From an uncultured Opitutia bacterium (GTDB lineage Bacteria; Verrucomicrobiota; Verrucomicrobiia; Opitutales; Opitutaceae), in contig CAIJZY010000009.1 in the NCBI GenBank assembly GCA_903825285.1, positions 1 to 43,361 on the forward strand: a stretch of DNA of 43,361 nucleotides, in the 5' to 3' direction. Made by a program: the position numbers and the translations under genes. This document shows positions 5,926 to 39,880 of this stretch, piece after piece. Numbering within the stretch: position 1 is the stretch's first letter; every line of letters begins with the position of its first letter. The notes below the pieces were generated by a model. It made no database searches, was not told the origin of the DNA, and saw only the letters and a program-made list of their open reading frames with translations.

Positions 5926-5950
5926 GCCCGGCAAACGGCCGCACCGCCGC

Positions 5951-5980: not shown

Positions 5981-5990
5981 GTTGCACCGT

Positions 5991-6608: not shown

Positions 6609-6620
6609 GGGCTTGTCACC

Positions 6621-6697: not shown

Positions 6698-6706
6698 TTT
6701 TTCCGG

Positions 6707-6928
6707 TCACTTGCCCGTGAATTTTTGCCGGATGACGAGCCAGATCGCCGCGGCCGCGATCAGGTCGCCCGTGCCGAGGGCGACGCGCATGGGCAGCGGG
6801 GCCCGACGGAACGCGAACAGCATGACCACCGCGCCGACGCAGATGGACAGGAGCACGATGGTGAGGATCGCCTTCTGCCGCGCGAGGTCTCCCGCGTGGG
6901 GATCGGTGGGGGGAATGGAGTCGGACAT
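6707..6928 (-). CDS. Small two-helix membrane protein, unknown function
   Basis: 73 residues (MSDSIPPTDPHAGDLARQKA...). Two hydrophobic segments, about residues 21-38 (ILTIVLLSICVGAVVMLFAF) and 48-66 (ALGTGDLIAAAAIWLVI), separated by the basic turn RRAPLPMR. The N-terminal 18 residues are polar and the C-terminus is QKFTGK. I do not recognise the family. The stop codon lies 10 bp from repeat copy A, and the start is followed on the other side by the heptad-repeat block, so it is flanked by repeats on both sides. No operon partner. Confidence 0.6.
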   Translation of the reverse strand: MSDSIPPTDPHAGDLARQKAILTIVLLSICVGAVVMLFAFRRAPLPMRVALGTGDLIAAAAIWLVIRQKFTGK

Positions 6929-6951
6929 TTTTTGAGGACAGCTTTACTGAG

Positions 6952-7073
6952 GTCAGACGTCAGAGGACAGAAGTCAGATGACAGATATCAGATGTCAGAT
7001 TTCGGAAGGCAGTCGATCAATTGAATCCAGCCACCAGTCTCTAGCCCCTGACCTCTGACCTCTGGCCTCTGCC
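6952..7073. repeat. Inverted blocks of 7-bp tandem repeats (GTCAGAN family)
   Basis: 6952-7000 is seven consecutive heptamers: GTCAGAC, GTCAGAG, GACAGAA, GTCAGAT, GACAGAT, ATCAGAT, GTCAGAT. After a 44-bp middle, 7045-7073 carries the same word on the opposite strand (CCTCTGA, CCTCTGG, CCTCTGC). The whole forms a head-to-head heptad cluster filling the gap between the small membrane protein and the histidine kinase stop codon. No spacers or conserved leader, so it is not a CRISPR. Confidence 0.85.
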
Positions 7074-7075
7074 AT

Positions 7076-14782: not shown

Positions 14783-15646
14783 TCAGCTCGCGCCCTGGCG
14801 CCACGCGCGGGGCGTCACGCCATAGGCGCGGCGGAACAGCGTGCTGAAGTGCTGCGACGAGCTGAAGCCGTGCTGCAGCGCGGCCTTGGTCACGTCGAAT
14901 CCCGGCTGGCGCAGCGTGAGGCGCGCGGCGTTGAGCCGCAGCTGGAGGTGGTGCGCCGCCGGGCTGACGCCGACCTCGCGCCGGAACTGCGTGCAGAAAT
15001 GCGGCACGCTCCGCGCCGTCGCCATCGCCGCGAGGTCGCGGAGCGGGATGCGCCGGTCGAGCTGCTGCTCCATGTAGGCCACCGCGCGCTGCACGGCGTA
15101 CGAGTAGGGCAGGGCGCTCGGCGCCGGCGCCCGGCGCTCGCCGGCGTGCAGCCGCTGCGCCACGAGCGAGACGAACAGCTCCAGGTAGGAGAGGATCACC
15201 TCCCGCCGTTCCGGCTGGTGCGCGACCACCTGCGCCACCAGGCCACGCAGCACGGGCTCGACCTCGGGACAGCCCGACAGGGTCCGGATGCGCCGGCGCC
15301 GCAGTTCCGCCGCCAGCTTCGCCGCCGCCGGGCCCAGCTGGTCGAGCTTCAGCCCGGCCCAGAGGTGATGGTTCTCGGGGTTCCGCGCCGGCCCCGTGCC
15401 GTGCCGCTCGCCGGGATACGTGATGTAGAGGTCGCCCATCGCCTGCACCGTGGTCTCCCCGTCGGCCCGCCATGACGCCTGGCCGCGGGCCAGGTAGAGG
15501 AACTCGAACCCCGGGTGCGCATGCGGCTTCAGCTGGTGACCCTGGCAGCACAGCGCCTCACCGCAGTGGGTGAACGCCGGCAGGTCGTCCACGGGATGCT
15601 CATAGACAAAGCCGCTGATGATCTGGGGCTCGCGAAGGACCTTCAT
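14783..15646 (-). CDS. AraC-family transcriptional regulator with cupin sensor
   Basis: 287 residues. The N-terminal ~110 residues look like an AraC-type cupin (HAHPGFEFLYLARG, then YITYPGERHG). The C-terminal ~100 residues form the two helix-turn-helix motifs (IPLRDLAAMATARSVPHFCT and FDVTKAALQHGFSSSQHFST), ending FRRAYGVTPRAWRQ, the usual AraC signature. It is divergent from the PhyH dioxygenase gene (129 bp between), so it most likely controls that gene and perhaps the heparinase-like gene after it. Inducer is probably a sugar or related metabolite; this is inference from the family. Confidence 0.93.
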   Translation of the reverse strand: MKVLREPQIISGFVYEHPVDDLPAFTHCGEALCCQGHQLKPHAHPGFEFLYLARGQASWRADGETTVQAMGDLYITYPGERHGTGPARNPENHHLWAGLKLDQLGPAAAKLAAELRRRRIRTLSGCPEVEPVLRGLVAQVVAHQPERREVILSYLELFVSLVAQRLHAGERRAPAPSALPYSYAVQRAVAYMEQQLDRRIPLRDLAAMATARSVPHFCTQFRREVGVSPAAHHLQLRLNAARLTLRQPGFDVTKAALQHGFSSSQHFSTLFRRAYGVTPRAWRQGAS

Positions 15647-15774: not shown

Positions 15775-16596
15775 ATGCCCGCCACCGCCACGAATCCCTA
15801 CCGCCTCACGCCCGCCCAGCAGAGCTTTTACCACGAGAACGGCTACCTCCTCGGCCTGCCGCCCATCTTCTCGCGGGAGGAGATGGCCAAGATCAACGCC
15901 GAGCTGCCCAACCTGCTCGCGCTGCTCCAGCCCGGCGAGACCTCCAAGGACATCCGCGAGTGGCACGAGACCAGCACCTATCTTTACGAGATCGTGAAGA
16001 ACCCGCGCATCCTCGACCTCGTCGAGGGCATCCTCGGGCCGAACTTCTACGCCTGGGCCAGCAACTTTTTCATCAAGGAGCCCCGCAACGCCGCCACCGT
16101 CGGCTGGCACCAGGACGCCTACTACTGGCCGATGGCGCCGCACAACTCGGTCACCGTCTGGCTGGCGTTCGACGACGTGGACGAGGTCAACGGCGGCATG
16201 AAGCTCCTGCCCGGCTCGCACCGCGGCGGCATCATCAAGCACAAGCGCTCGACGCAGACGTCGTCGGTGCTGTCGCTGGAGCTGGAGGACGGCTCGGATT
16301 TCAAGGCGGACAATGCCGTGCAGTTCCGCCTGAAGGCCGGCGAGTGCTCGCTGCACGACGACCGCGCGATCCACGGCTCGCCCGCGAACCCGTCGGACCG
16401 CCGCCGCGCGGGTCTCACGATCCGCTACTCGGGCACCAACGTGAAGAACGACATGGCGGTGAACCCGAACTTCAAGATCTACCTCTGCCGCGGCGTGGAC
16501 GAGTTCAAGCACAACCCCTATGGCACGCCCCCGACGCAGCGCTACGGCCGCCCGAGCTTCAAGCCGGTGAGCAACGAGGAAGCCGGCAAGGGCTGA
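15775..16596 (+). CDS. Phytanoyl-CoA dioxygenase (PhyH) family protein
   Basis: 273 residues. Fe(II)/2-oxoglutarate oxygenase of the PhyH type: iron ligands in WHQDAYYW (H112, D114) and distal H200 in DRAIHGS, with an arginine for 2-oxoglutarate in RRRAGLTIRY (R211 or R217). The double-stranded beta-helix around VTVWLAFDDVDEVNGGM and PGSHR is intact. Substrate unknown; these enzymes hydroxylate many small molecules, including ectoine and modified sugars, and are common in Verrucomicrobiota and Planctomycetota. It starts next to an AraC regulator and is followed after 156 bp by the heparinase-like gene. No signal peptide, so cytoplasmic. Confidence 0.92.
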   Translation: MPATATNPYRLTPAQQSFYHENGYLLGLPPIFSREEMAKINAELPNLLALLQPGETSKDIREWHETSTYLYEIVKNPRILDLVEGILGPNFYAWASNFFIKEPRNAATVGWHQDAYYWPMAPHNSVTVWLAFDDVDEVNGGMKLLPGSHRGGIIKHKRSTQTSSVLSLELEDGSDFKADNAVQFRLKAGECSLHDDRAIHGSPANPSDRRRAGLTIRYSGTNVKNDMAVNPNFKIYLCRGVDEFKHNPYGTPPTQRYGRPSFKPVSNEEAGKG

Positions 16597-16698: not shown

Positions 16699-16752
16699 CC
16701 CAAAAGATTGAACTCTTGAGGTCCGTGGGCTTCTGCCGCGATAGTGAGCGCC

Positions 16753-19038
16753 ATGTCCCAGACGCAGCTGTTCGAACTCACCCCAGCGGAGTCGATGTTT
16801 GCGCCGTTCAACGACCCGGCGGTCGCGGAACAGTTGCCGCTCCGGCTTGAGCCGGGTGCCGCCGCCGGGCTCCATCTGGATTACGGGTGGGACGGCACCA
16901 AGATTTCCTGGGACACGGCCCCGGCCGAAAATATGGCCGCGCGCGCCGAGCTGGCCGTCGCGGGGCTGCCGGAGCGGTTCGACCAGTTTGTCTTCTGCCA
17001 CGTCGCGCCGCGGCATGTCACCCTGGCCTTCGAGGCGCGCAGCCAGGGCCGGTGGTCCGCGCTGGGGGAACCGGTGGCCGGACGCGGCCGGCGGGATGAG
17101 GTCACGCGGCCGATCGGGGCGCGTCCGGTGGACGCGGTGCGGGTGACGCTCACGTCGCAGGGGACGGACCCCGTGCACCTCAGCCTGCAGTGGTGGGGCG
17201 TGGCGCGGGCCGCGCTCGTGGCGGAGCTGGAGGCGGCGCGGCCGCGCTACGACGGCCGCTGGGAGGGCCTGATCCTCCCGCCTGAGGAATGGCCCGAGCC
17301 GAAGCTGGCCTGCGGCCTCCTCTTCCGCGAGTCCGACCTGCCGGCGCTGCGGCAGAAGCGGTCCGCGCCATACTGGGACCGGCACTGGGAAATCCTCGAG
17401 GAGCAGGCGCGGTCGTATCTCGCGCGCCGGCCGGAGGACGACCTCGACAGCTTCCTGCCCCAGACCGACCAGCGCTACATCCGCGCGCGCGAGTCCGGCC
17501 GGGCGACCTACTTTGCGGAGCCGGTGATCCTCGGCTTTGTCGGCCTCGTGACCGGCGACCGCGCCCTCGGCTTCCATGCGCTGCGGTACCTGATGAGCAT
17601 GCTGCACACGACGTGGTGGACGCAGTCGGCCGAGAGCCGGGCGCGTGGCAGCATCTGGGACCAGCGCTGCTTCAACGAGGAGCAGGCCACCACCGCGGCG
17701 GCGCTGCTGCTCGACTGGTACGACTTCGCGCTCACGCCCCGGGCCCGCGTGTTCGCGCAGCAGGTGCTCTGGGACAAGGGCGTCGCCGTGATCGAGCGCG
17801 ACATGCTGAAGTGGGACTATGTCTTCACCATGAACCAGGGCCCGTGGTTCTGCCGCGCGCGGCTGCTGGCCGGGCTCTACCTCGAGTCGGTCTGGCCCCG
17901 GATGCGGCCCCACACCGAGCTGGCCCTGGCCGACCTGCAGGCTGGCATGGCGAACTACGTGCTGCCGGACGGCGGCACGGACGAGGGGCTGGGCTATTTC
18001 TCCCTCACGCTGCATGCCGTGCTGACCGGCCTGCTGGCCTATGCGCGCGCGCGCGGCGGGGACGTGCGTCCGCTCCTGCCGCCGGCGTTCGCCCAGACGG
18101 GCGGGTTCGTGGCCGCGCTCTCGGCGATGGATCCGGGCCGCGTGGTCACCGAGGGCGACAACACCATCGACGTCGCCGTGGGCGACACGATCCCGCTGCT
18201 GGCCGCGATGTTTCCGGACCAGGTCTACGCCCGCGTGGCCGCGGCCTGCCTGCTGCGGCGCCGTCCGCCGGGCTACTACGACCAGTACTTCGTCGAGGGC
18301 GTGTTCTCCTTCATCGCCGGCCCGACCCAGCTGGCGGCACCGGAGGCGATCGTCCCGACCTTCGCCGTGCTGCCGCACACCGGACACCTCACAAGCCGGC
18401 GCGCCACCGCCGCGGGCCGCACCGTGCGGCTGCATGTCGTCGGGGCCAAGGCGAAGGCCTCCCACACGCACTTCGACAAGGGCGCCTTCCTGCTCGAGCT
18501 CGACCGCAACCCCGTGTTGCTCGACCGCGGCCAGGTGCGCTACGACGACCTCCGCGCGCAGGACCTCAAGCGCACCGAGCTGCACAACACCCTCACGCCC
18601 GTGACGCCCGACGGCGTCTACCTCAACCAGGCGCCCGTGATCGAGGCCGTCATCCCGGCCGGCGAGGGCGACACCCGTCGTCTGCGCGCGCGGGTGGACC
18701 TCGCCCATGTCTGGCGCGGCGTGATGGCCGCGTGCAGCCGCGAGCTCATGGCCGACACGATCGAGGCGTTCCAGGTGCGCGACCGCGGCGAGCTGCTCGC
18801 GCCGTCGGCGCTGGCGTTCAACCTCCAGACGCGGGTCCCCTGGGAGATCCGCGGCCGCGAGGCCGTGCTCCGCGTGGAGGGCTGGGAGCTCACCCTCCGG
18901 GCGCCATGGGCCGACGAGATTGTCCAGCGCGAGCACTCGATCGATTTCCGGCTCGAGCCCATCTGGCACCTGGAGTGCCGGCTGAAATCGGCCCGCGCGT
19001 TTGATTTGACCACCTCGTTTGTCTGCACGCCGCGGTAA
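16753..19038 (+). CDS. Heparinase II/III-like protein (polysaccharide lyase-like)
   Basis: 761 residues from ATG at 16753 (MSQTQLFELTPAES...); a GTG nine bases earlier is a weaker choice. An N-terminal beta domain (about 1-160) is followed by an alpha/alpha-toroid (FNEEQATTAAALLLDWYDFA, then LPDGGTDEGLGYFSLT) and a C-terminal beta-sheet domain with the hallmark SHTHFDKGAFLLEL (H571, H573, D575) and LLDRGQVRYDD. These are features of heparinase II/III and alginate-lyase-like proteins that cleave uronic-acid polymers. No signal peptide is visible, so it may act on imported oligosaccharides. Follows the PhyH gene under a divergent AraC regulator. Substrate cannot be assigned from sequence. Confidence 0.85.
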   Translation: MSQTQLFELTPAESMFAPFNDPAVAEQLPLRLEPGAAAGLHLDYGWDGTKISWDTAPAENMAARAELAVAGLPERFDQFVFCHVAPRHVTLAFEARSQGRWSALGEPVAGRGRRDEVTRPIGARPVDAVRVTLTSQGTDPVHLSLQWWGVARAALVAELEAARPRYDGRWEGLILPPEEWPEPKLACGLLFRESDLPALRQKRSAPYWDRHWEILEEQARSYLARRPEDDLDSFLPQTDQRYIRARESGRATYFAEPVILGFVGLVTGDRALGFHALRYLMSMLHTTWWTQSAESRARGSIWDQRCFNEEQATTAAALLLDWYDFALTPRARVFAQQVLWDKGVAVIERDMLKWDYVFTMNQGPWFCRARLLAGLYLESVWPRMRPHTELALADLQAGMANYVLPDGGTDEGLGYFSLTLHAVLTGLLAYARARGGDVRPLLPPAFAQTGGFVAALSAMDPGRVVTEGDNTIDVAVGDTIPLLAAMFPDQVYARVAAACLLRRRPPGYYDQYFVEGVFSFIAGPTQLAAPEAIVPTFAVLPHTGHLTSRRATAAGRTVRLHVVGAKAKASHTHFDKGAFLLELDRNPVLLDRGQVRYDDLRAQDLKRTELHNTLTPVTPDGVYLNQAPVIEAVIPAGEGDTRRLRARVDLAHVWRGVMAACSRELMADTIEAFQVRDRGELLAPSALAFNLQTRVPWEIRGREAVLRVEGWELTLRAPWADEIVQREHSIDFRLEPIWHLECRLKSARAFDLTTSFVCTPR

Positions 19039-19125: not shown

Positions 19126-19692
19126 ATGCGTCGCTTCCTCTGTCTCATTCTTTTGCTCGCGGGCGGACTCGCCCGCCTGTCCGCCGCCGCGCCGGATGCC
19201 CGCCAGCTCGCGGGGTCCTGGCGCTACGACCCGGCCCGCAGCACGGAGCTCAGCTCCTGGGGCGCGCTCCGGCTGGTCATCACCGTCGACGGCGCGCACG
19301 TCACGCTCACGCGGCAGTTCGCGGCCGGCCGGCGCACATTTGACGAGGTGACCGCGCTCGACCTCGCGCAGCCGGTCAACATCGTGCCCGTCGCCTGGTG
19401 GCCCGACAACCGCCACATCGGCGCATACATCGGCGGCGACAAGACCAAGCGCATCCGGACGGAGCTGCTCGACGGCGGGCGGCTGCTGCGGACGAGCGCC
19501 GACCTCGTGCTGGCCACGCAGCAGGGCGAGCGCGCGGTGAACATCCTCTCCAACTACCAGGTCTCGGCCAACGGCGCGCGGCTCACGCTCATCGAGCTGC
19601 GCAGCACGCGCAACGATCCCATCGTCTACGTGTTCGACCGCATCACCGATGCCGCCGCCGATGCCGCGGTGGGGAAGGGCCGGGCCGAATGA
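19126..19692 (+). CDS. Secreted beta-rich protein, GxGYxYP companion, copy 1
   Basis: 188 residues. The ATG at 19126 is preceded by AGGAG at a 5-base spacing and opens a signal peptide (MRRFLCLILLLAGGLARLSA). The mature part begins LAGSWRYDPARST, a pattern seen in small exported lipocalin-like beta proteins, then predicted strands ending LTLIELRSTRNDPIVYVFDR. Its last four bases overlap the start of the GxGYxYP gene (ATGA, 19689-19692), so the two are translationally coupled. A clear paralogue is at 23304-23843 in the same position before a second GxGYxYP gene. Function unknown; the pairing suggests the two proteins work together. Confidence 0.85.
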   Translation: MRRFLCLILLLAGGLARLSAAAPDARQLAGSWRYDPARSTELSSWGALRLVITVDGAHVTLTRQFAAGRRTFDEVTALDLAQPVNIVPVAWWPDNRHIGAYIGGDKTKRIRTELLDGGRLLRTSADLVLATQQGERAVNILSNYQVSANGARLTLIELRSTRNDPIVYVFDRITDAAADAAVGKGRAE

Positions 19693-21383
19693 ACACGACC
19701 ATGATCACTCCTCGTTTCCTCCGCCTCCTCCCACTGGCCCTGCTCGCGGGCCTCCTGCTGCTGCCCGCGGCCCGGCTGCGCGCCGGCCAGCCCGAGCCGG
19801 CCAAGGTCGCCCATGCGCCGGCCACGGCGACGATCATCCCGCTCTCCGCCAACTGGCGGCTCGACGGCGACGTGCCGGTGCACGCGCTGCTGATCTCGCT
19901 GCAGGGCCTGGCGAACCGCGAGGCCCCGCGGGTCTACCTGGAATATCCGGCCGACTGGCAGTGGGAGATTGTCCGGCCGCTGGAGGGCTTCCTCGAGCGG
20001 CGCCACGGCGTGAAGTTCGACCGGCTCGGCCAGGACGACGCGGACGCCGCGCTCACGCGGTTCGGCCAGTACGCCAAGGGCTACGTCGTCTGGGACCGGG
20101 CCGTGCGCGCATCGCTCATCGTGGCATTCACGATCTCCGGCGTGGAGGACGCGGTGGTCGTGAGCCCGGATCTGATTCCCCTCGCCGAGAGGCACGGCCT
20201 GAAGTGCGTGGCCGACCTGCGGGGCCGCTTCACCGGCCAGCCGGACCACGCGATCTACCAGTGGGCCTATGACCATTACTGGGCGCGGTGCTCGCGCGAC
20301 TATTACGTGCTGCTCGGCGGCCACGCCGGCATCGAGATGCAGCCTGGCATCGCGGATTTCGGCGTGAAGCAGCGGGCCTTCTTCTCGGACCTGTCCGCGA
20401 ATCCGCAGCACCCCGAGGAACTGGCGCTCGAGCGGAAGATCCTCGGCCAGCAGCACCCGGCCAGCATCGTCGTCGGCTGGCATTCCTACGGCAAGGACAC
20501 CGAGGGCCAGCACACCACGCTGGTGGGCAACTACGGCCTGAAGATGGAGGGCCTGCACAACCTTCCCAACGTGTCGTTCACCTGCCAGCTCCCGCTCACC
20601 CCGGATTTCCACTTCGCGAACAACCACCACGTCGCCCCCGCGGCGCGGCTGGCGGCGGAGAAGAAGGTCTACGTCTGCGCGGTGGCGACCGACTCCATGG
20701 GCATCGGCGCGTGGACGAAGCCCGGCCGCGGCAAGATTCCCTACACCTGGCAGGTCACGATGAACTGGGCGTGGATGAATCCGCCGGCGCTCCAGTTCTT
20801 CTACGAGGACCGGACGCCCAACGACTACTTCATCGCCGGCCTGAGCGGCCCGGGCTACATGTACCCGAAATCCATCGCCGCGGAGAAATTCCCGGCACTG
20901 ATGGCAGACGCCCGTGCGCTCATGTCGCAGCTCGACCTCCGCGTGATGGAGATCATGGACTACTCCGAGGGCAACCGGCACGTCGGCAACACCGACCTGC
21001 CGAAGGCGGTGGTCGACCGGTACTATCATGAGTTTCCCGACGTCCTCGGCTTCATCAACGGCTACGGCACGGCGCGCACCTACGACCTCCGCGACGGCAA
21101 GCCGCTGATCAGCTACGACTATTACCTCGACGTGAACCGCTCGGTGCGGGACGCGGCGGCCGACCTGGAGGAGCTCATCCAGCTCAACCCGCAGCGGCCG
21201 TATTTCCTCCTGCTCCACATCCGCGAGCGCAACACCGTCGAAAAGGTAACGCAGATCCTCCATTCGCTGACCGAGCCGGTGGAGGTCGTGCCGATGGACA
21301 CCTTCCTCAAGCTCGCGGCCAGCGCGCAGACTTATCGCACGCACTATCTGCAGCCGACCGACCCGGTGAGCCGGAATCCGTAA
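19689..21383 (+). CDS. Secreted GxGYxYP-family protein, copy 1
   Basis: 564 residues with a signal peptide (MNTTMITPRFLRLLPLALLA...). The family-naming motif is intact as GPGYMYP (387-393). Other blocks shared with the second copy are LQGLANREAPRVYLEYP, KGYVVWDRAVRAS, WHSYGKDTEGQ, DSMGIGAWTKPGRGKIPY and INGYGTARTYDLRDGKP. GxGYxYP proteins are putative glycan-active proteins of Bacteroidota and Verrucomicrobiota without, to my knowledge, an established reaction. Starts inside the stop of its companion gene. The downstream gap carries a palindromic repeat before a convergent gene. Confidence 0.88.
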   Translation: MNTTMITPRFLRLLPLALLAGLLLLPAARLRAGQPEPAKVAHAPATATIIPLSANWRLDGDVPVHALLISLQGLANREAPRVYLEYPADWQWEIVRPLEGFLERRHGVKFDRLGQDDADAALTRFGQYAKGYVVWDRAVRASLIVAFTISGVEDAVVVSPDLIPLAERHGLKCVADLRGRFTGQPDHAIYQWAYDHYWARCSRDYYVLLGGHAGIEMQPGIADFGVKQRAFFSDLSANPQHPEELALERKILGQQHPASIVVGWHSYGKDTEGQHTTLVGNYGLKMEGLHNLPNVSFTCQLPLTPDFHFANNHHVAPAARLAAEKKVYVCAVATDSMGIGAWTKPGRGKIPYTWQVTMNWAWMNPPALQFFYEDRTPNDYFIAGLSGPGYMYPKSIAAEKFPALMADARALMSQLDLRVMEIMDYSEGNRHVGNTDLPKAVVDRYYHEFPDVLGFINGYGTARTYDLRDGKPLISYDYYLDVNRSVRDAAADLEELIQLNPQRPYFLLLHIRERNTVEKVTQILHSLTEPVEVVPMDTFLKLAASAQTYRTHYLQPTDPVSRNP

Positions 21384-21398
21384 GAGCCGGCGGGTGCG

Positions 21399-21480
21399 TG
21401 TAGGGCGGGGTCGCTGACCCCGCCTGTCCGGGTTGGCGCGGCCAAGGACGAGAAAGGCGGGATCGGCGATCCCGCCCTAC
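21399..21480. repeat. GC-rich palindromic repeat, copy B (paired, with compensating changes)
   Basis: Left unit starts TGTAGGGCGGGGTCGCTGAC at 21399; right unit near 21456-21480 reads GGCGGGATCGGCGATCCCGC before CCTAC. In the right unit both sides of the stem changed together (GGGGTC to GGGATC, GACCCC to GATCCC), so the hairpin is kept. It lies between convergent genes, 15 bp after the GxGYxYP stop. Confidence 0.9.
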
Positions 21481-21518
21481 CACTGAGCGCACCTATGCTC
21501 GGGCAATGCGTCTGCCGG

Positions 21519-21986
21519 TTACTTCTTCTTGTCGGCGTCCATCCGGGCGCGCTCGGCGGCGTCGAGCTTGCCGTCGTGGTTGCGGTCGTAGCGGGCGAGC
21601 TCCTCCTTGGTCGTGGTGAGCTCGAGCGCCTTGGCCTTCGCGGCGGCGGCGGCCGCGGCGGTCTTCTCCGCGATGGTCTGGCCGACCTCGATGGATTTCT
21701 CCTTGGCCTTGGCCGCGGCTTCCACGGTGGCGTCCTTGGCGGCGTGGTAGGCCTCCTTCGACTTCTCCTCGGTCACGATCGCGGCGTGATGCGCGCCTTT
21801 GGCGGCCTTGTCGTACAGTTCCACGGACGCGTCCTTGGTGGCGACGGCGGCACGCTTGGTGGCGTCGGCCACGTCGTGCGCGGCTTCCTTCACAGTCTCC
21901 TTGGCCTGGTCCACCTTGCTGGGTTCCGCCGCGCGGAGGAAGGGCGTGAACAGGAGGAGGGCGAGGGCGGGGCGGAGACGTTTCAT
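21519..21986 (-). CDS. Exported LEA-like helical protein with one EF-hand loop
   Basis: 155 residues. Signal peptide MKRLRPALALLLFTPFLRAA, then about 100 residues of Ala/Lys/Glu-rich amphipathic helix with recurring DATK, DATV and KAKEKS patterns like LEA or apolipoprotein-type helices. A canonical calcium-binding EF-hand loop, DRNHDGKLDAAE, occupies residues 134-145, and the protein ends DADKKK. Likely periplasmic. Function unknown; desiccation/osmotic protection or Ca2+-dependent envelope binding are guesses from composition. Divergent from the hemolysin III gene, 75 bp between starts. Confidence 0.75.
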   Translation of the reverse strand: MKRLRPALALLLFTPFLRAAEPSKVDQAKETVKEAAHDVADATKRAAVATKDASVELYDKAAKGAHHAAIVTEEKSKEAYHAAKDATVEAAAKAKEKSIEVGQTIAEKTAAAAAAAKAKALELTTTKEELARYDRNHDGKLDAAERARMDADKKK

Positions 21987-22061
21987 GGGCGGGAAGGTTG
22001 GGTGGTGCGGGCCTCACTGACAACACTTGCGCTGAGCGGTGCCCGCGTGAAAGGTATTTTT

Positions 22062-22709
22062 ATGCCCGCCGCCGCCTACACGCCCCGCGAGGAACTCGCC
22101 AATGCCATTTCCCACGGCCTGGGCATTGCCCTGAGCATCGCGGGCCTGGTCCTGATGGTCACGCTGGCCGCGATGCACAGTGACGCCTGGGCGGTGACGA
22201 GCACGGCGATCTTCGGCGCGGCGCTGGTGCTCCTCTACACGACCTCGACGCTGTACCACAGCTTCCGCGACGAGCAGCTCAAGCGGCTGCTGCGCAAGTT
22301 CGACCACGCGGCGATCTTCCTCCTGATCGCCGGCACCTACACGCCGTTTCTGCTGGTGAGCCTGCGCGGGCCGTGGGGTTGGAGCCTCTTCGGCGTCGTC
22401 TGGGGCCTTGCCGCCGTGGGGGTCACGCTGAAGTTCTGGTTCGCCGGGCGGTTCCGCCTGCTGTCCACGCTCATCTACATCGGCATGGGCTGGCTCGTGC
22501 TGGCGGCGTTCCGCCCGCTCATGGCCGCGCTGCCGCGCGGCGGGCTCGTGCTGCTGGTGGCCGGCGGCATCTGCTACACTGGCGGCGCCGTCTTCTACCT
22601 CTGGAAGCGCCTGCCGTACCACCACGCCGTGTGGCACCTGTGGGTGCTCGCGGGCAGCATCTGCCACTGGGCCGCGGTCTACCTGTACGTCGTGCCGGTC
22701 AGCGGTTGA
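22062..22709 (+). CDS. Hemolysin III / PAQR family membrane protein
   Basis: 215 residues from ATG at 22062 (MPAAAYTPREELANAISHGL...). Seven hydrophobic helices and the PAQR-type metal-site residues: NAISHGLG near the N-terminus, TLYHSFRD, RKFDHAAIFLLIAGTYTP, and the C-terminal PYHHAVWHLWVLAGS. Family members are called hemolysin III or YqfA; true haemolysis is not established for most, and a membrane lipid or metal-related hydrolase role is suspected. Convergent with the TspO gene, whose stop codon overlaps its last 11 bp. Confidence 0.92.
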   Translation: MPAAAYTPREELANAISHGLGIALSIAGLVLMVTLAAMHSDAWAVTSTAIFGAALVLLYTTSTLYHSFRDEQLKRLLRKFDHAAIFLLIAGTYTPFLLVSLRGPWGWSLFGVVWGLAAVGVTLKFWFAGRFRLLSTLIYIGMGWLVLAAFRPLMAALPRGGLVLLVAGGICYTGGAVFYLWKRLPYHHAVWHLWVLAGSICHWAAVYLYVVPVSG

Positions 22710-23169
22710 GCCACCAGACGGCCCCGTTCAACCCGGAGGCAAAGCTCACCCACGCCAGATAGGGCGCCCACAGGACGCCCGAAATTTTGTCCAAGCGCGC
22801 GAACCGCACCTGCAGGACCGCGAGGAAGGCCCAGAACACCACGACCTCCGCGAGCGCGGCGCCCGGGGAGCGCAGCCCGAAGAACAGCACGGACCAGAGC
22901 GCATTGAGCGCGAGGCTGGAAAAGAACAGCCGCAGCGCCGCGCGGGCGCCGGGCTGGTCGCGGCGCAGCCAGACACGCCATGCGGCGACGCTCATGGCCG
23001 CGTAGAGGAGCGTCCAGACCGGCGCGAACACCGCCGCCGGCGGATTCCAGGACGGCTTTGCCAGCGCGAGGTACCACGTGCCAACGGAGGTTGACGTGGC
23101 CCAGCCGCCGAGCGCGGCGGCGGCGAAGGAGGCGAGGAGAAACAACGCGAGCATGCCCCAGCGGTTCAT
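22699..23169 (-). CDS. TspO/MBR family (tryptophan-rich sensory) protein
   Basis: 156 residues, five hydrophobic helices. Family signatures: WYLALAKPSWNPPAAVFAPV, WTLLYAAMSVAAWRVW, LNALWSVLFFGLRSP and the C-terminal WAPYLAWVSFASGLN. TspO proteins bind porphyrins and other ligands in the membrane and are linked to stress or oxygen/light responses. The 3' end overlaps the convergent hemolysin III gene by 11 bp, so there is no room for a terminator between them. Confidence 0.93.
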   Translation of the reverse strand: MNRWGMLALFLLASFAAAALGGWATSTSVGTWYLALAKPSWNPPAAVFAPVWTLLYAAMSVAAWRVWLRRDQPGARAALRLFFSSLALNALWSVLFFGLRSPGAALAEVVVFWAFLAVLQVRFARLDKISGVLWAPYLAWVSFASGLNGAVWWLNR

Positions 23170-23303
23170 GCCGGGAGCGAACCCGTCCGCGGCCCGCGGC
23201 GCAAGGGCGCGCGCGGCGGTGATAATTCATCGCCGTCCCGACCGGTCGGCTTGTGTTGCGGGCGAATCGGCGGAGAATTTCCTCGGCGTTGTCGCCATCC
23301 TCC

Positions 23304-23843
23304 ATGCGCTCCCGTTTCCCTGCCTCCTGGTTGCTTGCCCTCGGTCTGGCGCTTGGCGCCGGACTTTCCCTCCCGGCGGCCGACGCGCCCGCCGGCCTCG
23401 CCGGCAATTGGGTGCTCGACGTCGCCCGCAGCACGCCGATCCGGCCGTGGGACCGCCTCGCGGTCAGCATTGCCGTCACCGGCGACACTGTCGTCCTCAC
23501 CCGGCACCTCGCCTGGGGCACGGACCGCAAGGTGGACGATGTCACCACGGTGAAAACCGACGGCCACACTGTCACGGCGAACCCGGTCGGCTACTGGCTC
23601 GATACCTGGTACACCAACGTCTACGTCGGCGGCGACCGCCGCAAGCAGGTCGCGGGCGAATGGCTCGACGGCGGCCGCGTGCTCAAGCTCGAGACCAACC
23701 TGCAGCTCGAGGGCCAGCAGGGCGACCACCCGGTCCACCTCTATGACGAGTACCGGCTCTCGGCCGACGGCCGGACGCTGAAGCTCTACGAGCTTCGCTC
23801 CACCCGCGACGAGGCGATGGTTTATTATTTCACCCGCCAGTAA
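23304..23843 (+). CDS. Secreted beta-rich protein, GxGYxYP companion, copy 2
   Basis: 179 residues from ATG at 23304, opening a signal peptide (MRSRFPASWLLALGLALGAG). Mature region LAGNWVLDVARST aligns with LAGSWRYDPARST of copy 1, and the end KLYELRSTRDEAMVYYFTR aligns with LIELRSTRNDPIVYVFDR. Middle blocks also match (EWLDGGRVLKLETNL against ELLDGGRLLRTSADL). It is followed 19 bp later by the second GxGYxYP gene. Function unknown. The two copies differ clearly, so the duplication is old or the copies came in separately. Confidence 0.85.
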   Translation: MRSRFPASWLLALGLALGAGLSLPAADAPAGLAGNWVLDVARSTPIRPWDRLAVSIAVTGDTVVLTRHLAWGTDRKVDDVTTVKTDGHTVTANPVGYWLDTWYTNVYVGGDRRKQVAGEWLDGGRVLKLETNLQLEGQQGDHPVHLYDEYRLSADGRTLKLYELRSTRDEAMVYYFTRQ

Positions 23844-23862
23844 ATTTTCCGCGCGACCGCCC

Positions 23863-25551
23863 ATGAAAACCACTTTGAAACTCTCCGCCCTCGTCCTCGC
23901 GCTGCTCGCCCCCGCCGCCTTCGCCGTCCCCGGCGTGCCCGGCCAGGCGCCCAAGGAGGCCTTCCTCGTCCCGGTGCAGGACAACTGGGAGATCACGCTC
24001 AGCGACCCGGCCTCGCCGCACAAGGGCCAGCCCGGCGCGCTCGCGGCCAACCTGATGCTCATCGGCCTGCAGGGCCTGGCCAACACCGACGCGCCCCGCG
24101 TCTACATCGAGTACCCGCTCACCTGGCATTTCCACGACTTCAACCCGCTGAAGGATTTCTACGCCACGCGCTACGGCGTGAAGTTCACGCGGCTCGACAC
24201 GCCCGACGCGGCGCTGACGGCGCTCGGCCACTTCGCCAAGGGCTACGTGGTGTGGGACCGGAACGTGCGCGCCTCCATCAACGTCGCGCTCACCGCCGCC
24301 GGCGTGCTGCGCGGCATCGTGGTGGACGAGACCCTGATCCCGCTCGCGGAAAAGCACGGGCTCAAGCCGCTGGCGGACTTCCGCGGGAAGTTCACCGGCC
24401 AGTCGGACATCCAGATCTACCGCTGGGCCTACGCCACATACTGGAAGGACTGCAGCCGCGACTACATCATCTGGATGGGCGGCGCGGCGGGCAACGTGAT
24501 GGAGCCGGGCGTGGCGGACCTCGCCGTGGCGTTCCACGCCTTTGTCACGGACCTCTCGGCGAACCCGAAGGACAAGGAGGAGATCGCCTTCCACAAGGAG
24601 CTGCTCGCGCAGCTGAAGCCCACGGCCTGGATCATGGGCTGGCACTCCTACGCGAAGGACACGGAGGGCCAGTGGATCACGCTCACCTCGGGCTTCGGCC
24701 TGAAGGCGATCGGCCTGAACACGTTTCCCAACGGCACCTTCATGAGCCAGGTCGGCTTCTCGCCCGGCTTCAGCTTCACCAACAACAACCACGTGACCCG
24801 CGACAGCGTCGTGCACGCGGAGAAGAAGGTTTACCTCTGCCTCGTGCAGTCCGACAGCATGGGCATCGGCGCCTGGACCGAGCCCGAGCGCGGCCGGATC
24901 CCGTACAACTGGGAGGTCGGCGTGGACGGCGCGCAGTGGTATCCCGCCGCGATGGAAATGTTCGCGAAGGACAAGACCCCGAACGACTACTTCATCGGCG
25001 GCCAGTCGGGCTACATGTACCCGGCGGCGGTGCCGGCGGACCGCTTCCCCGGCCTGATGAAGGAGATGAACGTGATGATGCCGCTGATGGACGAGCACAC
25101 GGTCGGAATCATGGACCACACCGACCGCGGCATCCCGATCGGCTACTTTGACCTGCCGAAGCACGTGGTGGACGAGTATTACGCCGGCGCGCCGGGCGTC
25201 ATCGGCTTCATCAACGGCTATGCCGCCGCCCACACCTTCGACGTGCGCAACGGCCAGGCGATGATGTCCTACGACTACTACCTCGACGAGCACCGCCCGG
25301 TGGCGAGCGCCATTGCCGACCTCGACGAGCTTGCGCGGCTCAACCCCGTACGGCCGTACTTCATGCTCATCCACGTGCGCGAATCCAACAGCATCAAGCG
25401 CGTGATCAGCATCCTCGACGGCCTCGAGGAGAAGCCCGAGGTCGTGCCCCTCGACACGTTCCTGAAACTCGCCGCGAGCCAGCCGACGTTCAAGACGCGC
25501 TACAAGGACCCGAAGCCCGCCGACAAGCCCTGGGACTCGCAGACGCAGTGA
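23863..25551 (+). CDS. Secreted GxGYxYP-family protein, copy 2 (altered signature)
   Basis: 562 residues with signal peptide MKTTLKLSALVLALLAPAAF. Homologous to copy 1 along its length (LQGLANTDAPRVYIEYP, WHSYAKDTEGQ, DSMGIGAWTEPERGRIPY, INGYAAAHTFDVRNGQ, SYDYYLDEHRPV). The motif region reads IGGQSGYMYP (residues 378-387) where copy 1 has IAGLSGPGYMYP, so two residues including the first glycine of the signature are absent. Paired with the companion gene just upstream. The stop codon is two bases before repeat copy C, which separates it from a convergent peptidase gene. Confidence 0.88.
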   Translation: MKTTLKLSALVLALLAPAAFAVPGVPGQAPKEAFLVPVQDNWEITLSDPASPHKGQPGALAANLMLIGLQGLANTDAPRVYIEYPLTWHFHDFNPLKDFYATRYGVKFTRLDTPDAALTALGHFAKGYVVWDRNVRASINVALTAAGVLRGIVVDETLIPLAEKHGLKPLADFRGKFTGQSDIQIYRWAYATYWKDCSRDYIIWMGGAAGNVMEPGVADLAVAFHAFVTDLSANPKDKEEIAFHKELLAQLKPTAWIMGWHSYAKDTEGQWITLTSGFGLKAIGLNTFPNGTFMSQVGFSPGFSFTNNNHVTRDSVVHAEKKVYLCLVQSDSMGIGAWTEPERGRIPYNWEVGVDGAQWYPAAMEMFAKDKTPNDYFIGGQSGYMYPAAVPADRFPGLMKEMNVMMPLMDEHTVGIMDHTDRGIPIGYFDLPKHVVDEYYAGAPGVIGFINGYAAAHTFDVRNGQAMMSYDYYLDEHRPVASAIADLDELARLNPVRPYFMLIHVRESNSIKRVISILDGLEEKPEVVPLDTFLKLAASQPTFKTRYKDPKPADKPWDSQTQ

Positions 25552-25553
25552 GT

Positions 25554-25584
25554 TGTAGGGCGGGGTCGCCGACCCCGCCCTACA
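25554..25584. repeat. GC-rich palindromic repeat, copy C (single perfect hairpin)
   Basis: 31 bp with perfect 15-bp arms (TGTAGGGCGGGGTCG / CGACCCCGCCCTACA) around one base. It sits exactly between two convergent genes and could end transcription from both sides. Its last bases (CTA, 25580-25582) form the TAG stop codon of the leftward peptidase gene. Confidence 0.92.
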
Positions 25585-26734
25585 CCCCGGCGACTTTTCC
25601 CGCGGCGATCGTCTGCAGGAAACGCGCGGCCAGCTGCGCGCGCTCGACCAGGCTGGGCAGCGCGCAGAACTCGCGGTCGCTGTGCAGGTGGTCGCCAATG
25701 ACGCCGAGGCCGTCGAGGTTGGGCAGGCCGGCGGCGGAGAGCAGGTTGCCGTCGGAGCCGCCGCCCGCGTGGACCCACGAGAACGGCGCCAGGCCGAGCT
25801 CCCGGCCGCACGCCTGGTAGACGGCGAACGCGGCCTCCTCGGCCGGACCGCATTCCTTCGGCGGACGATTGAAGCTGCCGGTGAGCTCAAGCTTGAGGCC
25901 CTCGCGGGTGTTGATGGCGGCGGCGAGTTCCGCGAGGCGGGCGAGCACCGGTTCGCGGTCGGCCGCGCGGGTGACGCGGACGTCGAGCAGGGCCTGGGCG
26001 AAGTCGGGGACGACGTTGGTCGCCTCGCTCCCGCCGCGGACGAGCCCGATGTTGAGCAGCGTGCCGGGCAGTTCCGCCGGCAGCCGGTGCGCGGCGACGA
26101 GGAACTCGGCCAGCGCGGCGATCGCGTTGCGGGCGTCGCTCGGCGTCTTCGCGGCATGCCCGGCGCGGCCGCGGCAGGTGACGGTGAAGTTCCCCGTGCC
26201 CTTGCGCGACTGGACCAGATTGCCGTTGGGGCGGGCCGGCTCAAAGACGAGACCGAGCTGGTGGCGGCGCGCCGACTCGGCCAGCAGCCCGGCGCTGCCG
26301 AAGGACCCGGTCTCCTCGTCCGGGGTGAGCAGCACCTCGAAGCCCAGCGTGTCCGACGGCGACGCGGCGAGGTAGGCCGACAGCGCGGCGAGCATCACCA
26401 CGAGTCCGCCCTTCATGTCGGCAACGCCGGGACCGCGCAGCGTCTGGTCGTTCACCAGCTCGCAGTGCTGGAAGGAATGCCCGGCGCCGTAGACCGTGTC
26501 GTAGTGGCCGCAGAGCAGCACCTGCCGCGGCGCCTCCGGGCGGTAGCTCACGCGCAGCGCCTGCGCGGTGGTGTGGACGCACGCGGCGCGGACGACCGTG
26601 ACGCCCGGCAGCGCGGCGAAGTCGGCCTCGAGCAGGCCCAGCATGGCGGCCAGGCCCGTCAGGTTGTCGCTGCCGGAATTCTGGTTGGCCCAGCGGATGA
26701 GCCGGTCGCGGAGAAGGGGAAGTTCGGGAGCCAC
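25580..26734 (-). CDS. M20 family metallopeptidase (glutamate carboxypeptidase-like)
   Basis: 384 residues if it starts at the GTG at 26734 (VAPELPLLRDRLIRWANQ...), eight bases after the glyoxalase-like stop; no ATG is available before the conserved part, and the Shine-Dalgarno is unclear. Two-zinc site complete: GHYDT (H77, D79), GVADMKGG (D106), PDEETG (E140, E141), VFEPA (E165), and a distal histidine in HLHSDREF. The inserted dimerisation domain carries HAAKTPSDARNAI. Resembles carboxypeptidase G2-like enzymes that cleave terminal acyl-amino acids. No signal peptide with this start. Third gene of a leftward run with the beta-helix and glyoxalase genes. The stop codon lies inside a repeat. 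Confidence 0.88.
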   Translation of the reverse strand: MAPELPLLRDRLIRWANQNSGSDNLTGLAAMLGLLEADFAALPGVTVVRAACVHTTAQALRVSYRPEAPRQVLLCGHYDTVYGAGHSFQHCELVNDQTLRGPGVADMKGGLVVMLAALSAYLAASPSDTLGFEVLLTPDEETGSFGSAGLLAESARRHQLGLVFEPARPNGNLVQSRKGTGNFTVTCRGRAGHAAKTPSDARNAIAALAEFLVAAHRLPAELPGTLLNIGLVRGGSEATNVVPDFAQALLDVRVTRAADREPVLARLAELAAAINTREGLKLELTGSFNRPPKECGPAEEAAFAVYQACGRELGLAPFSWVHAGGGSDGNLLSAAGLPNLDGLGVIGDHLHSDREFCALPSLVERAQLAARFLQTIAAGKVAGV

Positions 26735-26742
26735 GGAGAAAG

Positions 26743-27129
26743 TCAGGCCCGGCCGTTGATGACGGCCTCGATGCGGTAGCCGTCGGGATCGAAGACGAAG
26801 GCGGCATAATAATTTTTGCCGTACTCCGGGTTCAGGCCTGAACCGCCGTTGTCTTTGCCGCCATGCTTCATGGCCGCCCGGTAAAAGGCGTCCACCGCCT
26901 TTCGCGACGGGGCGACGAAGGCGATATGAAAGCCGTCGCCGGTCATGATTTTCTCTCGCTGGCGCAACCGCAGCGCGAACTGGTCCTGGTTTTTCACTAG
27001 GCCGTAGCCAATCACCCATTCGTTCGTGAAAACCCGCTTGTAGCCCAGGGCCTTCATCACGGGGTCATAGAACGCCGCCGAGCGCTTCAAGTCGCGGGAG
27101 GGCAGCGAGAGATGGTGGATGAAGCGCAT
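26743..27129 (-). CDS. Glyoxalase/bleomycin-resistance (VOC) superfamily protein
   Basis: 128 residues from ATG at 27129 (MRFIHHLSLPSRDLKRSAAF...). One VOC module: N-terminal beta-alpha-beta with HHLSLPSRDLKRSAAFYDPV, then FHIAFVAPSRKAVDAFY, and the C-terminal metal-site strand AAFVFDPDGYRIEAVI. These proteins bind a divalent metal and act as small-molecule lyases, isomerases or dioxygenases, or as binding proteins; the substrate is not apparent. It sits 20 bp after the beta-helix gene and 8 bp before the M20 gene. Confidence 0.88.
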   Translation of the reverse strand: MRFIHHLSLPSRDLKRSAAFYDPVMKALGYKRVFTNEWVIGYGLVKNQDQFALRLRQREKIMTGDGFHIAFVAPSRKAVDAFYRAAMKHGGKDNGGSGLNPEYGKNYYAAFVFDPDGYRIEAVINGRA

Positions 27130-27149
27130 GGCCGGCCGCACGCCTTTGC

Positions 27150-29267
27150 TCACTTCGGGCGCACGGATTTCGGCCGAACACCTGACTTCGACCAGTCCCA
27201 CGGCTTGAAGCCGAGCTTGAGGGCGGGGGAGTTCTTCGCGATGCGCCAGGTCTTGCGGCCCTCGGTGAGGCGCGGGTTGGCAATGACCGACAGCAAGTCG
27301 TGGCCGGCCTGCCGCCACGCGGCGAAGCTCAGGTAATGCGGCGCGCCCTCCTTGAGGTAGGACTCGGGATTGACGCTGCGGGGCGCCCGGCCGCCGCCGA
27401 ACCAGAAGCAGTTCGCGTCGGTCACCAGCGCGCCGACCGCGATGTTGCCCTGGTAGCCGCTGCGGAAGAGCGACTCGCTCGGGCCAATCACGATGTTCTG
27501 GAAGAAATTCGCGCTGAAATGCCCGGGCTCGATCCGGCCGACCGACACCAGCGCGTGGCGGCCGCGCGCGAGGATGTTGTGGCGCACCACGTTCTCGCGG
27601 CCGTAGTGGATGTTGAACGGCGCATCCTTGGTGTCGTGGACGAGGTTGTGCTCGACGAGCACGTGCGAGGTGCCCTCGTCGAGGTACACGCCCCACCCGC
27701 CGTAGTCGTGCGACCAGATGTGGTGGAGGTGGTTGCCGCGGATGACGGTGCCGGGCTGCACGCCGAGCGTGTAGATGCCGCCCATGTCGCTGAGGATGCC
27801 GGCGCCGATGTGGTGGATGAGGTTGTGCTCGATCCGATTGTGGGTCGCGAGCGTGTCGCGGTAGCCCCAGGTCCAGCCGAGCGAGATGCCGGTGTAGCAG
27901 GTGTCGTGGATGTGGTTGTGCGCGACGACGCAGTCCGCGGCGTTGACCAGCAGCACGCCGATGCCCTGGTGAAAGATCCGGCCGATCTGGTGGATGTGGT
28001 TGTCCGTGATCGTGAGGTGGCCCGTGCGGCGGTCGCCGAGGCCGTCGAGCTCCGAGCCGCCGGCCCGGATGCCGCCGGCGCCGAGGTCCGTGAGGTGGTT
28101 GCCGACGGCGGAGCAGTCGCGGCAGCCGGCGCCGAACTCGAGGGCGTAGAGGCCCACGTGCTCGATGGTGCAGTCGGTGACGCGGCAGTTGCGGGCGGCG
28201 CGGAACAGCAACGCTCCCGGGACGGCGATGGCCGCCTGCGGGCTGCCGCCCATCGGCAGGTCCTGGCCCTCGAGCCCGTCATGCGTCGGCTGGTGCCGCT
28301 CGGCCAGCGGCGAGTACCAGTCGCCATGGCGGAAGGTGAGCCCGCGGAACTCCAGGCCGCGAAGGTGCCGCGCGCCGTGGAGGTCGATCCGCTCGACGGT
28401 CTCGCCGAAGACGGCGCCGCTGGCGCGCACGAAGGAGTGCAGGCGGGGCGCGACGATCGTGGTGTTCTCCGGCGTCTCGCCGGGGCGCGGCAGGTAGTAA
28501 AGCCGGCCAGTCTCGCGGCTGAGGTACCACTCGCCGGGCTCGGTGAGGGCCTCGAAGAGGTTGTCGATGTAGTAGCGCGCGTGGTCGCGGGTGCCGTCGG
28601 GCTTCGGGTGCGACTCGTAGAGGACGAAGTGCGAGCGGCGGCCGAAGCTGAGCCAGCCGGTGCGCGGATGGAGCGCGGGCTTCGGCAGCCGCTCCTCGAT
28701 CCAGTAGTGCATCAGGACGAACTCGGCCTCGGGCAGGGAGGTCCACGCGGGATCCACGTCGCCGGGACGCGGCTTGAAGGTGTCGCGGCCGTCGGTCAGC
28801 CCGGTCTTCTCCGGCTCGAGCATCTCGCCGACGCGGAGGACGTTCTGGCCGCCGGCCTGGTCGGGCGTGAACTTCGGGAACCGCGCGCGCGGGGCGCGGC
28901 GGCCGTTGACAAAGAGCGAGCGGAAGAAGCGCCGGCCGGCGGGGACGTCGGGCAGGTCGAGGGTCCACTCCGTGCGGCCCAGGCGCGTGCCCACGCGCCA
29001 GCCGGTCAGGACCTCGCCGCCGTCGAACACCGGCGTCGCGCCGGGGGCGGCGGCGAAGCAGGTGTCGGAGTCCGCCTCGGTGAACGCCACCGTGCTCGCG
29101 ACCTCGTACCGGCCGGACTTCACCAGGACCTTGGCCGGTCCGGCGACCTGGCCGGCGGCGCGCAGCCGGCGGAGATTGTCCCGGGCCCCGGCGAGGGTGG
29201 CCCAGGGGCGGGAGGCGGAACCGGGCGCGCCGTCGCGGCCCCGGGGGGAGAGGTGGAAGACGTGCAT
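27150..29267 (-). CDS. Right-handed parallel beta-helix protein, GH141-like
   Basis: 705 residues. The N-terminus MHVFHLSPRGRDGAPGSASR followed by PWATLAGARDNLRRLRA is the typical opening of GH141-type and related beta-helix carbohydrate enzymes. A beta-sandwich insert follows (about 90-280), then a long run of helix coils with repeated N-H-I-H/N-L-V-H stacks (DNHIHQIG, HNHIHDTC, HNLIHHIG, GNHLHHIW, HNLVHDTK). There is no signal peptide, unlike many relatives, so it may act in the cytoplasm or the true start may be missed. GH141 includes alpha-L-fucosidase and xylanase activity; the substrate here is unknown. First gene of a run with the glyoxalase-like and M20 genes. Confidence 0.85.
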   Translation of the reverse strand: MHVFHLSPRGRDGAPGSASRPWATLAGARDNLRRLRAAGQVAGPAKVLVKSGRYEVASTVAFTEADSDTCFAAAPGATPVFDGGEVLTGWRVGTRLGRTEWTLDLPDVPAGRRFFRSLFVNGRRAPRARFPKFTPDQAGGQNVLRVGEMLEPEKTGLTDGRDTFKPRPGDVDPAWTSLPEAEFVLMHYWIEERLPKPALHPRTGWLSFGRRSHFVLYESHPKPDGTRDHARYYIDNLFEALTEPGEWYLSRETGRLYYLPRPGETPENTTIVAPRLHSFVRASGAVFGETVERIDLHGARHLRGLEFRGLTFRHGDWYSPLAERHQPTHDGLEGQDLPMGGSPQAAIAVPGALLFRAARNCRVTDCTIEHVGLYALEFGAGCRDCSAVGNHLTDLGAGGIRAGGSELDGLGDRRTGHLTITDNHIHQIGRIFHQGIGVLLVNAADCVVAHNHIHDTCYTGISLGWTWGYRDTLATHNRIEHNLIHHIGAGILSDMGGIYTLGVQPGTVIRGNHLHHIWSHDYGGWGVYLDEGTSHVLVEHNLVHDTKDAPFNIHYGRENVVRHNILARGRHALVSVGRIEPGHFSANFFQNIVIGPSESLFRSGYQGNIAVGALVTDANCFWFGGGRAPRSVNPESYLKEGAPHYLSFAAWRQAGHDLLSVIANPRLTEGRKTWRIAKNSPALKLGFKPWDWSKSGVRPKSVRPK

Positions 29268-37171: not shown

Positions 37172-39880
<2,709 letters not shown>

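Follow-up and report, generated by a model that had tools for sequence, protein, structure and literature searches.

GxGYxYP proteins form an orphan family: a structure has been solved, no reaction is shown in the literature we found, and the single published model that we came across is a site of three acids. In Bacteroides thetaiotaomicron, GxGYxYP genes lie in polysaccharide utilization loci (PMC4071793). The structure 3SGG is that of one such protein, BT2193, and the paper describing it proposes a glycoside hydrolase in which Glu272 is the proton donor and the base is either Asp331 or, more likely, Asp333 (PMC4071793). In an expression table published elsewhere BT2193 is listed as a hypothetical protein (PMC10434189), and a further paper has the name of a B. 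thetaiotaomicron member as that of a primer (PMC5201249). Here we describe a branch of this family that comes with a partner. It is represented by two gene pairs in a stretch of 43,361 nucleotides (contig CAIJZY010000009.1, our C9; hereafter the window) that belongs to a 3.74 Mb, 62-contig Opitutaceae-type genome of the Verrucomicrobiota. Each pair consists of a gene for a small secreted protein, which we call S, followed by a gene for a GxGYxYP protein, G; GxGYxYP proteins with an S beside them or fused to them are called S-linked below.

Compared with BT2193, S-linked GxGYxYP proteins retain all four domains, a similar predicted fold (template modeling, or TM, score of 0.80 to 3SGG) and the counterparts of Glu272 and Asp331. 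Unlike BT2193, they have a calycin partner, Asp333 is replaced and a new H-x-Y-x-K-D-x-E loop is present. The partner, in turn, resembles the calycin superfamily (lipocalins, fatty acid-binding proteins [FABPs] and avidins) in its predicted closed beta barrel, whose first strand has a Trp and whose last strand an Arg or Lys. It differs from known calycins in that no profile matches it above cut-off and in that it is a secreted bacterial protein tied to a single enzyme family. There is also some likeness to Bacteroides polysaccharide utilization loci, as pair 1 comes after a PhyH-type and a heparinase II/III-like gene, and an AraC regulator stands alongside. However, a Pfam scan of 26 reading frames in the window found no SusC/SusD-type gene, and the other types of pair have mixed neighbors. 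The main text of the BT2193 paper contains neither lipocalin nor calycin, nor any word beginning with Verrucomicrob or Opitut, and mentions no calycin partner (PMC4071793). In the literature searched, which did not cover most subscription papers, we found no description of a calycin-type partner of GxGYxYP proteins and no match that combines lipocalin-like proteins with Verrucomicrobi and Opitut.

The S-linked clade is a two-part variant of the family, made of a secreted calycin subunit and a rebuilt GxGYxYP subunit. At the level of sequence we can show one-to-one pairing, tight spacing, a single clade, coinheritance, one fusion lineage and what reads as a rebuilt site. The explanation that accounts best for the whole, and that we hold to be moderately probable, is that S is a permanent, dedicated secreted calycin subunit of a distinct GxGYxYP clade. 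That S would be a dedicated physical subunit of G is the part of which we are most confident; we consider it very probable.

A partner of one GxGYxYP branch

In the window, pair 1 consists of S1 (19126–19692, 188 aa) and G1 (19689–21383, 564 aa), and pair 2 of S2 (23304–23843, 179 aa) and G2 (23863–25551, 562 aa), all on the forward strand. We refer to these pairs as types 1 and 2. Rereading the reading frames bore out the coordinates, strand and order given for both pairs in the original prediction, which had been made from this DNA alone. It also bore out the ATGA overlap in pair 1, where the ATG of G1 at 19689 overlaps the TGA of S1, and the 19 bp gap between S2 and G2. All four proteins start with a hydrophobic stretch that, judged by eye, resembles a signal peptide. 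S1 and S2 are homologs with 43% identity over 147 aligned positions (E 5e-36), and G1 and G2 are 51% identical across 532 positions.

The same pairing recurs elsewhere. The source genome holds four GxGYxYP genes and four S matches; beyond the window these are a third pair (type 3) on contig C40 (locus L002) and an S-G fusion in a 684-aa frame on contig C53 (L003). The genus, with 12 genomes, has 37 GxGYxYP places, and to each belongs one of 37 strong S matches (E ≤ 1.2e-44); three further S matches with E values of 0.25–0.81 were treated as noise. In a phylum sample of 387 genomes, GxGYxYP occurs at 85 places in 42 genomes and S at 54 places in 23 genomes. When genus and phylum sample are combined, 76 of 108 GxGYxYP proteins have an S on the same strand, either upstream (65) or fused in frame at the N-terminus (11), and in these 76 cases the end of the S match lies 835–1134 bp from the start of the PF14323 match. 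Separate pairs are tightly spaced: 61 of the 65 fall between −4 and +40 bp, with G starts assigned by a script rule that favors a hydrophobic N-terminus, and 14 of the 65 have the ATGA overlap.

Seen from the side of S, 76 of 77 matches adjoin a GxGYxYP gene. The remaining match (G062:C54) was rejected as a lone S: it has an E value of 9.3e-4 over 51 positions, covers the beginning of a lipoprotein-like frame of 171 aa that shows no further likeness to S, and is lost with a broader S profile (A3, 46 rows). That profile gives 53 matches in 22 of the 387 genomes, compared by eye with the earlier ones, and all 53 lie beside a GxGYxYP gene. The original prediction had proposed S as a dedicated partner and had named as evidence against this that its homologs should rarely stand beside GxGYxYP genes elsewhere. 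We find the opposite at 53 of 53 places, and the proposal is further supported by the 37 of 37 places in the genus, by the 76 of 77 S matches and by the 11 of 76 cases in which both are one polypeptide.

Named relatives tell a similar story. We took the best 80 of 294 GTDB loci by likeness to G1, a choice that therefore favors the clade of G1 and overlaps the genomes of the two sets above; they come mostly from metagenome-assembled genomes (MAGs) and a few isolates of Opitutaceae/Opitutales within the Verrucomicrobiota. In these loci 87 of 92 GxGYxYP proteins have an S within 600 bp or fused (two are fused), where L172 is counted although its S match is weak (61 bits). Of the remaining five, four lie on contigs that offer no more than 201 bp upstream of the gene, and the fifth has an S 667 bp away. 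Three S in the named loci have no counted GxGYxYP protein: those of L118 and L170, both at the end of the sequence, and that of L149.

S is not a companion of GxGYxYP proteins in general. We reject a general partnership, as S is missing from 32 of the 108 places above and from 34 of 35 places in a second phylum, that of genome G395, in large searches that scored at most nine candidates per genome and could miss a strongly diverged S. In the second phylum GxGYxYP occurs at 35 places in 19 of 392 genomes and S was found in just one genome. All of the 32 S-less GxGYxYP proteins lie outside the order of the window, except for G340 (same family). S therefore partners one GxGYxYP branch. The only S found in the second phylum belongs to an Opitutaceae-like S-G pair on contig G395:C357 (L171), in a MAG titled Planctomycetota; both horizontal transfer and a misbinned contig are possible explanations.

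Descent of the pairs

To place the pairs relative to each other we used a GxGYxYP tree of 82 sequences (quick IQ-TREE, Asp-x-Asp columns dropped), which omits 26 separate-pair rows of the genus. The 50 S-linked rows lie on one side of a branch with a support of 99 in the SH-like approximate likelihood ratio test (SH-aLRT), and the 11 fusions form one clade among them (SH-aLRT 100). The S-linked clade divides into type 1 (G1), type 2 (G2), type 3 (contig C40) and the fused lineage, with L051 and L075 placed unsurely. A genome can carry up to four S-linked paralogs, and in nine genomes out of the 12 in the genus types 1 and 2 stand side by side, separated by 2.9–5.8 kb.

Because G1 and G2 fall into separate clades, pair 1 and pair 2 are old paralogs. 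The earlier idea of a duplicated two-gene module holds insofar as there are two homologous S-G pairs, but the duplication is old. A recent tandem duplication within the window was rejected, with pairs 1 and 2 in separate clades.

Across the 76 pairs, uncorrected distances between S proteins and between G proteins are strongly correlated (r 0.914). When partners are swapped within genomes, the correlation falls to a mean of 0.113 and a maximum of 0.352 in 2000 shuffles; this swap at the level of sequence distances takes the place of the comparison between cognate and swapped complexes that the original prediction had suggested. Hence, the pairs have been inherited as units and have not been exchanged between paralogs.

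One could argue that this is inherited gene order and nothing else: S and G would be operon neighbors with related but separate tasks that never touch. The S-linked proteins do form one clade, in which adjacency may be an inherited trait, and correlated distances would follow from linked descent. However, four or more paralogous lineages with otherwise different neighbors have kept the order, S was never found without G in the phylum sample when searched with the broader profile, and one lineage has joined S and G in one chain. We consider gene order alone quite improbable.

Natural fusions

In all 11 fusions, out of 76 S-linked cases, S is the N-terminal part. We modeled the 702-aa fusion of locus L191 from an alignment of 50 rows (A7), with a mean predicted local distance difference test score (pLDDT) of 89.5 and a predicted TM score (pTM) of 0.75. 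In the model the last strand of S spans residues 180–186 and the first strand of G residues 190–196. Because only residues 187–189 separate these strands, the two folds are predicted to abut almost without a linker. The fusion lacks the stretch that carries the G signal peptide in separate pairs. Its G half matches 3SGG (E 1.2e-27, 537 columns, TM 0.80 on its length), and its S half matches UnaG, CRABP and similar barrels.

The fusions bear on the roles that the original prediction had offered for S, namely chaperone, inhibitor or substrate-binding subunit. A structural or binding subunit is what they favor, whereas an inhibitor and a purely transient chaperone fit poorly with an in-frame fusion. 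An enzyme and a protein that holds it inactive until needed, be it an inhibitor or immunity-like, would also be strictly paired and adjacent. Yet 11 of 76 cases are in-frame fusions without a long linker, there is no sign of a target in the cell itself, and no member of the clade has lost S in 76 cases. Hence, we think it very improbable that S is an inhibitor. That S would be a permanent subunit is well supported; we favor it over an inhibitor or a transient chaperone because of the fusions and the coinheritance of S and G.

The Cephaloticoccus MAG that contains the modeled fusion also carries a separate pair. The fused gene (3752–5581, forward strand) and the pair (5661–7769, reverse strand) stand tail to tail, about 80 bp apart. 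An apparent fusion of S to a larger upstream protein in another locus (L109, a 937-aa frame) was rejected; it runs antisense over a 556-aa frame.

The predicted fold of the partner

Profile searches say little about S. Neither S1 nor S2 matches a Pfam family above cut-off, NCBIfam has nothing for S1 or P0006 and one unrelated weak match for S2, and no lipocalin or FABP profile matches above cut-off (two of 46 members weakly match the VDE lipocalin profile, at best with E 0.0045). Searched by sequence against the PDB, S gives a best match of E 0.13.

The structure model is more informative. An AlphaFold2 model of S1, built from an alignment of 89 S sequences (A5), has a mean pLDDT of 90.9 and a pTM of 0.82, and shows ten strands and a C-terminal helix. 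Foldseek finds 13 PDB matches with E ≤ 0.001, of which 12 are FABP-family proteins and one is the engineered lipocalin FluA. S is therefore predicted, with high confidence, to be an antiparallel ten-stranded barrel of the calycin type, similar to lipocalins and FABPs; calyx-shaped barrels of this superfamily have eight to ten strands.

Calycins share a signature, a 3-10 helix that caps the barrel and a first-strand Trp stacked on an Arg or Lys of the last strand (PMC2954199). S has the residues that could form it: the model has a short helix at residues 26–28, Trp32 (19219–19221 in S1) is present in 89 of 89 sequences, and 88 of 89 carry Arg or Lys at position 172 of the last strand (Arg172 in S1, 19639–19641). 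Other positions are conserved to a similar degree, namely Gly30 (89 of 89), Ser39 (87), Gln133 (89; 19522–19524), Gly134 (88), Leu153 (89) and Arg162 (89; 19609–19611). Ser39, Gln133 and Arg162 fall in loops 1/2, 5/6, 7/8 and 9/10. Because these loops share one end of the barrel, the three residues should form one conserved rim, presumably the open one, if S has the topology of an up-and-down barrel.

This pattern matters for the possibility that S is dedicated to folding or export, acting as a prodomain or intramolecular chaperone in the fusions and as a separate chaperone in the pairs. Such a factor would keep hold of G, or shield it, in the periplasm and dissociate afterwards, with no role in the function of mature G. 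A small secreted partner in strict one-to-one pairing, N-terminal in all 11 fusions, is what one would expect of it. It would also make sense that S always precedes G and is made first, with an ATGA overlap in 14 of 65 pairs. On the other hand, relatives with the same G fold manage without S (32 of 108), and calycins are, as a rule, ligand-binding barrels (PMC2954199). The conserved polar residues of S, moreover, would cluster in loops at one end of the barrel rather than being spread over its outside, judging from the topology. A pure folding factor is therefore unlikely in our view, although less so than an inhibitor or inherited gene order.

An apparently rebuilt active site

Both GxGYxYP proteins of the window match every Pfam domain of the family. 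For the N1, N2, N3 and C domains (PF16216, PF20957, PF20958 and PF14323), G1 scores 44.5, 81.1, 72 and 180.7 bits and G2 scores 25.1, 78.5, 52.8 and 139.6 bits, which exceeds all four gathering cut-offs (23.9, 24.5, 24.4 and 27 bits). The motif that gives the family its name reads GLSGPGYMYP in G1 (GPGYMYP), while G2 has GQSGYMYP and keeps GYMYP only; BT2193 itself has GSSYIFP. Relative to GLSGPGYMYP, type-2 proteins lack two motif residues (GQS-GYMYP), as seen at 25009–25023 of the window and in rows P0004, L061 and L070.

The residues of the published hydrolase proposal can be traced through a profile alignment to 3SGG, with chain numbers converted by hand. Residues invariant in the clade match Glu272 and Asp331; Asp333 has no counterpart. 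In G1 the two retained residues are Glu272 (20502–20504), the counterpart of the proposed proton donor, and Asp335 (20691–20693), the counterpart of Asp331. Two codons further on, Met337 occupies the place that is Asp333 in most S-less relatives. In G2 the retained residues are Glu268 (24664–24666) and Asp331 (24853–24855), and Asp333 is lost.

The loss is complete within the genus and phylum sets. Asp333 is absent from 76 of 76 S-linked proteins and replaced by Met, Ile, Leu or Val, within the consensus [TS]D[SGA][MILV]G[IL]G.W that all 76 share. The acidic triad Glu272/Asp331/Asp333 is hence incomplete in every one of them. In the same sets all 32 S-less proteins keep the second Asp, in contexts such as SDGDN, NEGD and GDYDS. 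For the second phylum we fetched 30 of the 35 places, 29 of them alignable: 27 of 28 S-less proteins keep the second Asp, L225 has an Asp one column off, and the single S-linked protein lacks it.

What surrounds the lost residue does not look like decay. Glu272 is kept in 50 of 50 S-linked rows (31 of 32 other rows) and Asp331 is invariant in the same 50. The new H-x-Y-x-K-D-x-E loop lies beside Glu272: His265, Tyr267 and Asp270 are present in 50 of 50 S-linked rows and Lys269 in 49, as against none of the 32 S-less rows for His265, Tyr267 and Lys269 and two for Asp270. Because Glu272 and Asp331 are invariant and a new charged loop is conserved, the proposed active site of the clade looks rebuilt and not simply decayed.

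A different conclusion would be that the S-linked GxGYxYP proteins have given up catalysis: G would be a sugar-binding or sensing protein and S the second binding module of a capture complex. The loss of Asp333 in 76 of 76 proteins fits this idea, as do the up to four S-linked paralogs per genome, a number that proteins binding several ligands might have, and the TonB-plug proteins upstream of 10 pairs. It sits less well with the invariance of Glu272 and Asp331 (50 of 50) and with the new loop of His265, Tyr267, Lys269 and Asp270, which would point to changed chemistry and not to decay. We regard a nonenzymatic pair as unlikely, yet as the strongest competitor of a permanent calycin subunit in a GxGYxYP clade.

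What the pair might do

A carbohydrate-directed function of the S-G pair is fairly probable, a view based on the GxGYxYP family (PMC4071793) and on the context of pair 1. S and G would be produced jointly and, after export, assemble in the periplasm. The barrel of S would be latched at one end by its Trp-Arg pair, while the other rim (Ser39, Gln133-Gly134 and Arg162) might bind a polar, perhaps acidic, glycan-derived ligand or dock on the cleft of G. The pair could then act on carbohydrate as a two-part enzyme, or bind sugar as a pair, with S completing or feeding the site of G. We hold this last step, that S completes or feeds the site, only tentatively and think it rather less probable than its opposite. 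Its most specific form is a two-subunit periplasmic enzyme of a new kind in which the S rim of Ser39, Gln133 and Arg162 reaches across the interface and completes the base-less G site; this seems to us improbable as it stands.

Several observations weigh against a dedicated calycin subunit of a carbohydrate-active protein. Fold matches of S are moderate, with TM scores of 0.41–0.51 on query length for the FABP-like rows, and the pTM of 0.75 of the fusion model does not establish how its halves pack. The tree is a quick one and less sure where several S-less rows sit on long branches, and the groupings of S and G disagree at some levels: with six average-linkage clusters for each, type-2 S falls together with about half of type-1 and type-3 S. 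Because all S-linked proteins form one clade, the gain of S is to be counted as a single event, as is the loss of Asp333, and neither is repeated independent evidence. We found no common neighbor that would indicate a shared substrate; none emerges because neighbors differ between the types of pair. Finally, we found no shown activity for any GxGYxYP protein in the literature searched, and the discussion of the BT2193 paper states that analysis of proteins from the mannan locus had so far failed to identify an activity (PMC4071793).

The clade is nevertheless useful for understanding the family. It breaks the three-acid model cleanly and in a testable way. S adds a calycin family that has no Pfam or NCBIfam model and that in the phylum sample is seen only with a GxGYxYP protein. 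If S is needed for function, then assays of S-linked GxGYxYP proteins alone would fail for a simple reason. The natural fusions offer a ready single-chain protein for crystallization and activity screens. Should the site indeed be completed across the interface, then a calycin would be an obligate subunit of a glycan-active enzyme.

Gene neighborhood

Neighbors were counted by type of pair within about 8 kb. Before pair 1 lie a PhyH-type gene (15775–16596, forward strand), found near 12 of 23 type-1 pairs, and a heparinase II/III-like gene (16744–19038, forward strand), found near 11 of 23. An AraC-family regulator (14783–15646, reverse strand) is divergent from the PhyH gene. Type-2 pairs have other companions: among 15 of them, HlyIII is near 11, M20 near 9 and a GH141-like gene near 8. 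In the window itself, the opposite strand after pair 2 (25580–29267) carries a GH141-like beta-helix gene as well as an M20 peptidase and a glyoxalase-like frame.

Ten of 76 pairs, nine of them of type 1, have a TonB-plug protein upstream, and seven pairs (four of type 3 and three of type 1) lie near a heparinase-like cluster. The commonest neighbors of type-3 pairs are rRNA-methyltransferase-like (14 and 10 loci). For the TonB-plug, heparinase-like and rRNA-methyltransferase-like clusters, genes were called by a crude rule of codon composition.

Elsewhere in the window, the region 37175–41033 on the reverse strand holds what looks like a split methionine synthase. A homocysteine S-methyltransferase gene (39909–41033) directly precedes a gene (37175–39880) that encodes pterin-binding, B12-binding and activation domains.

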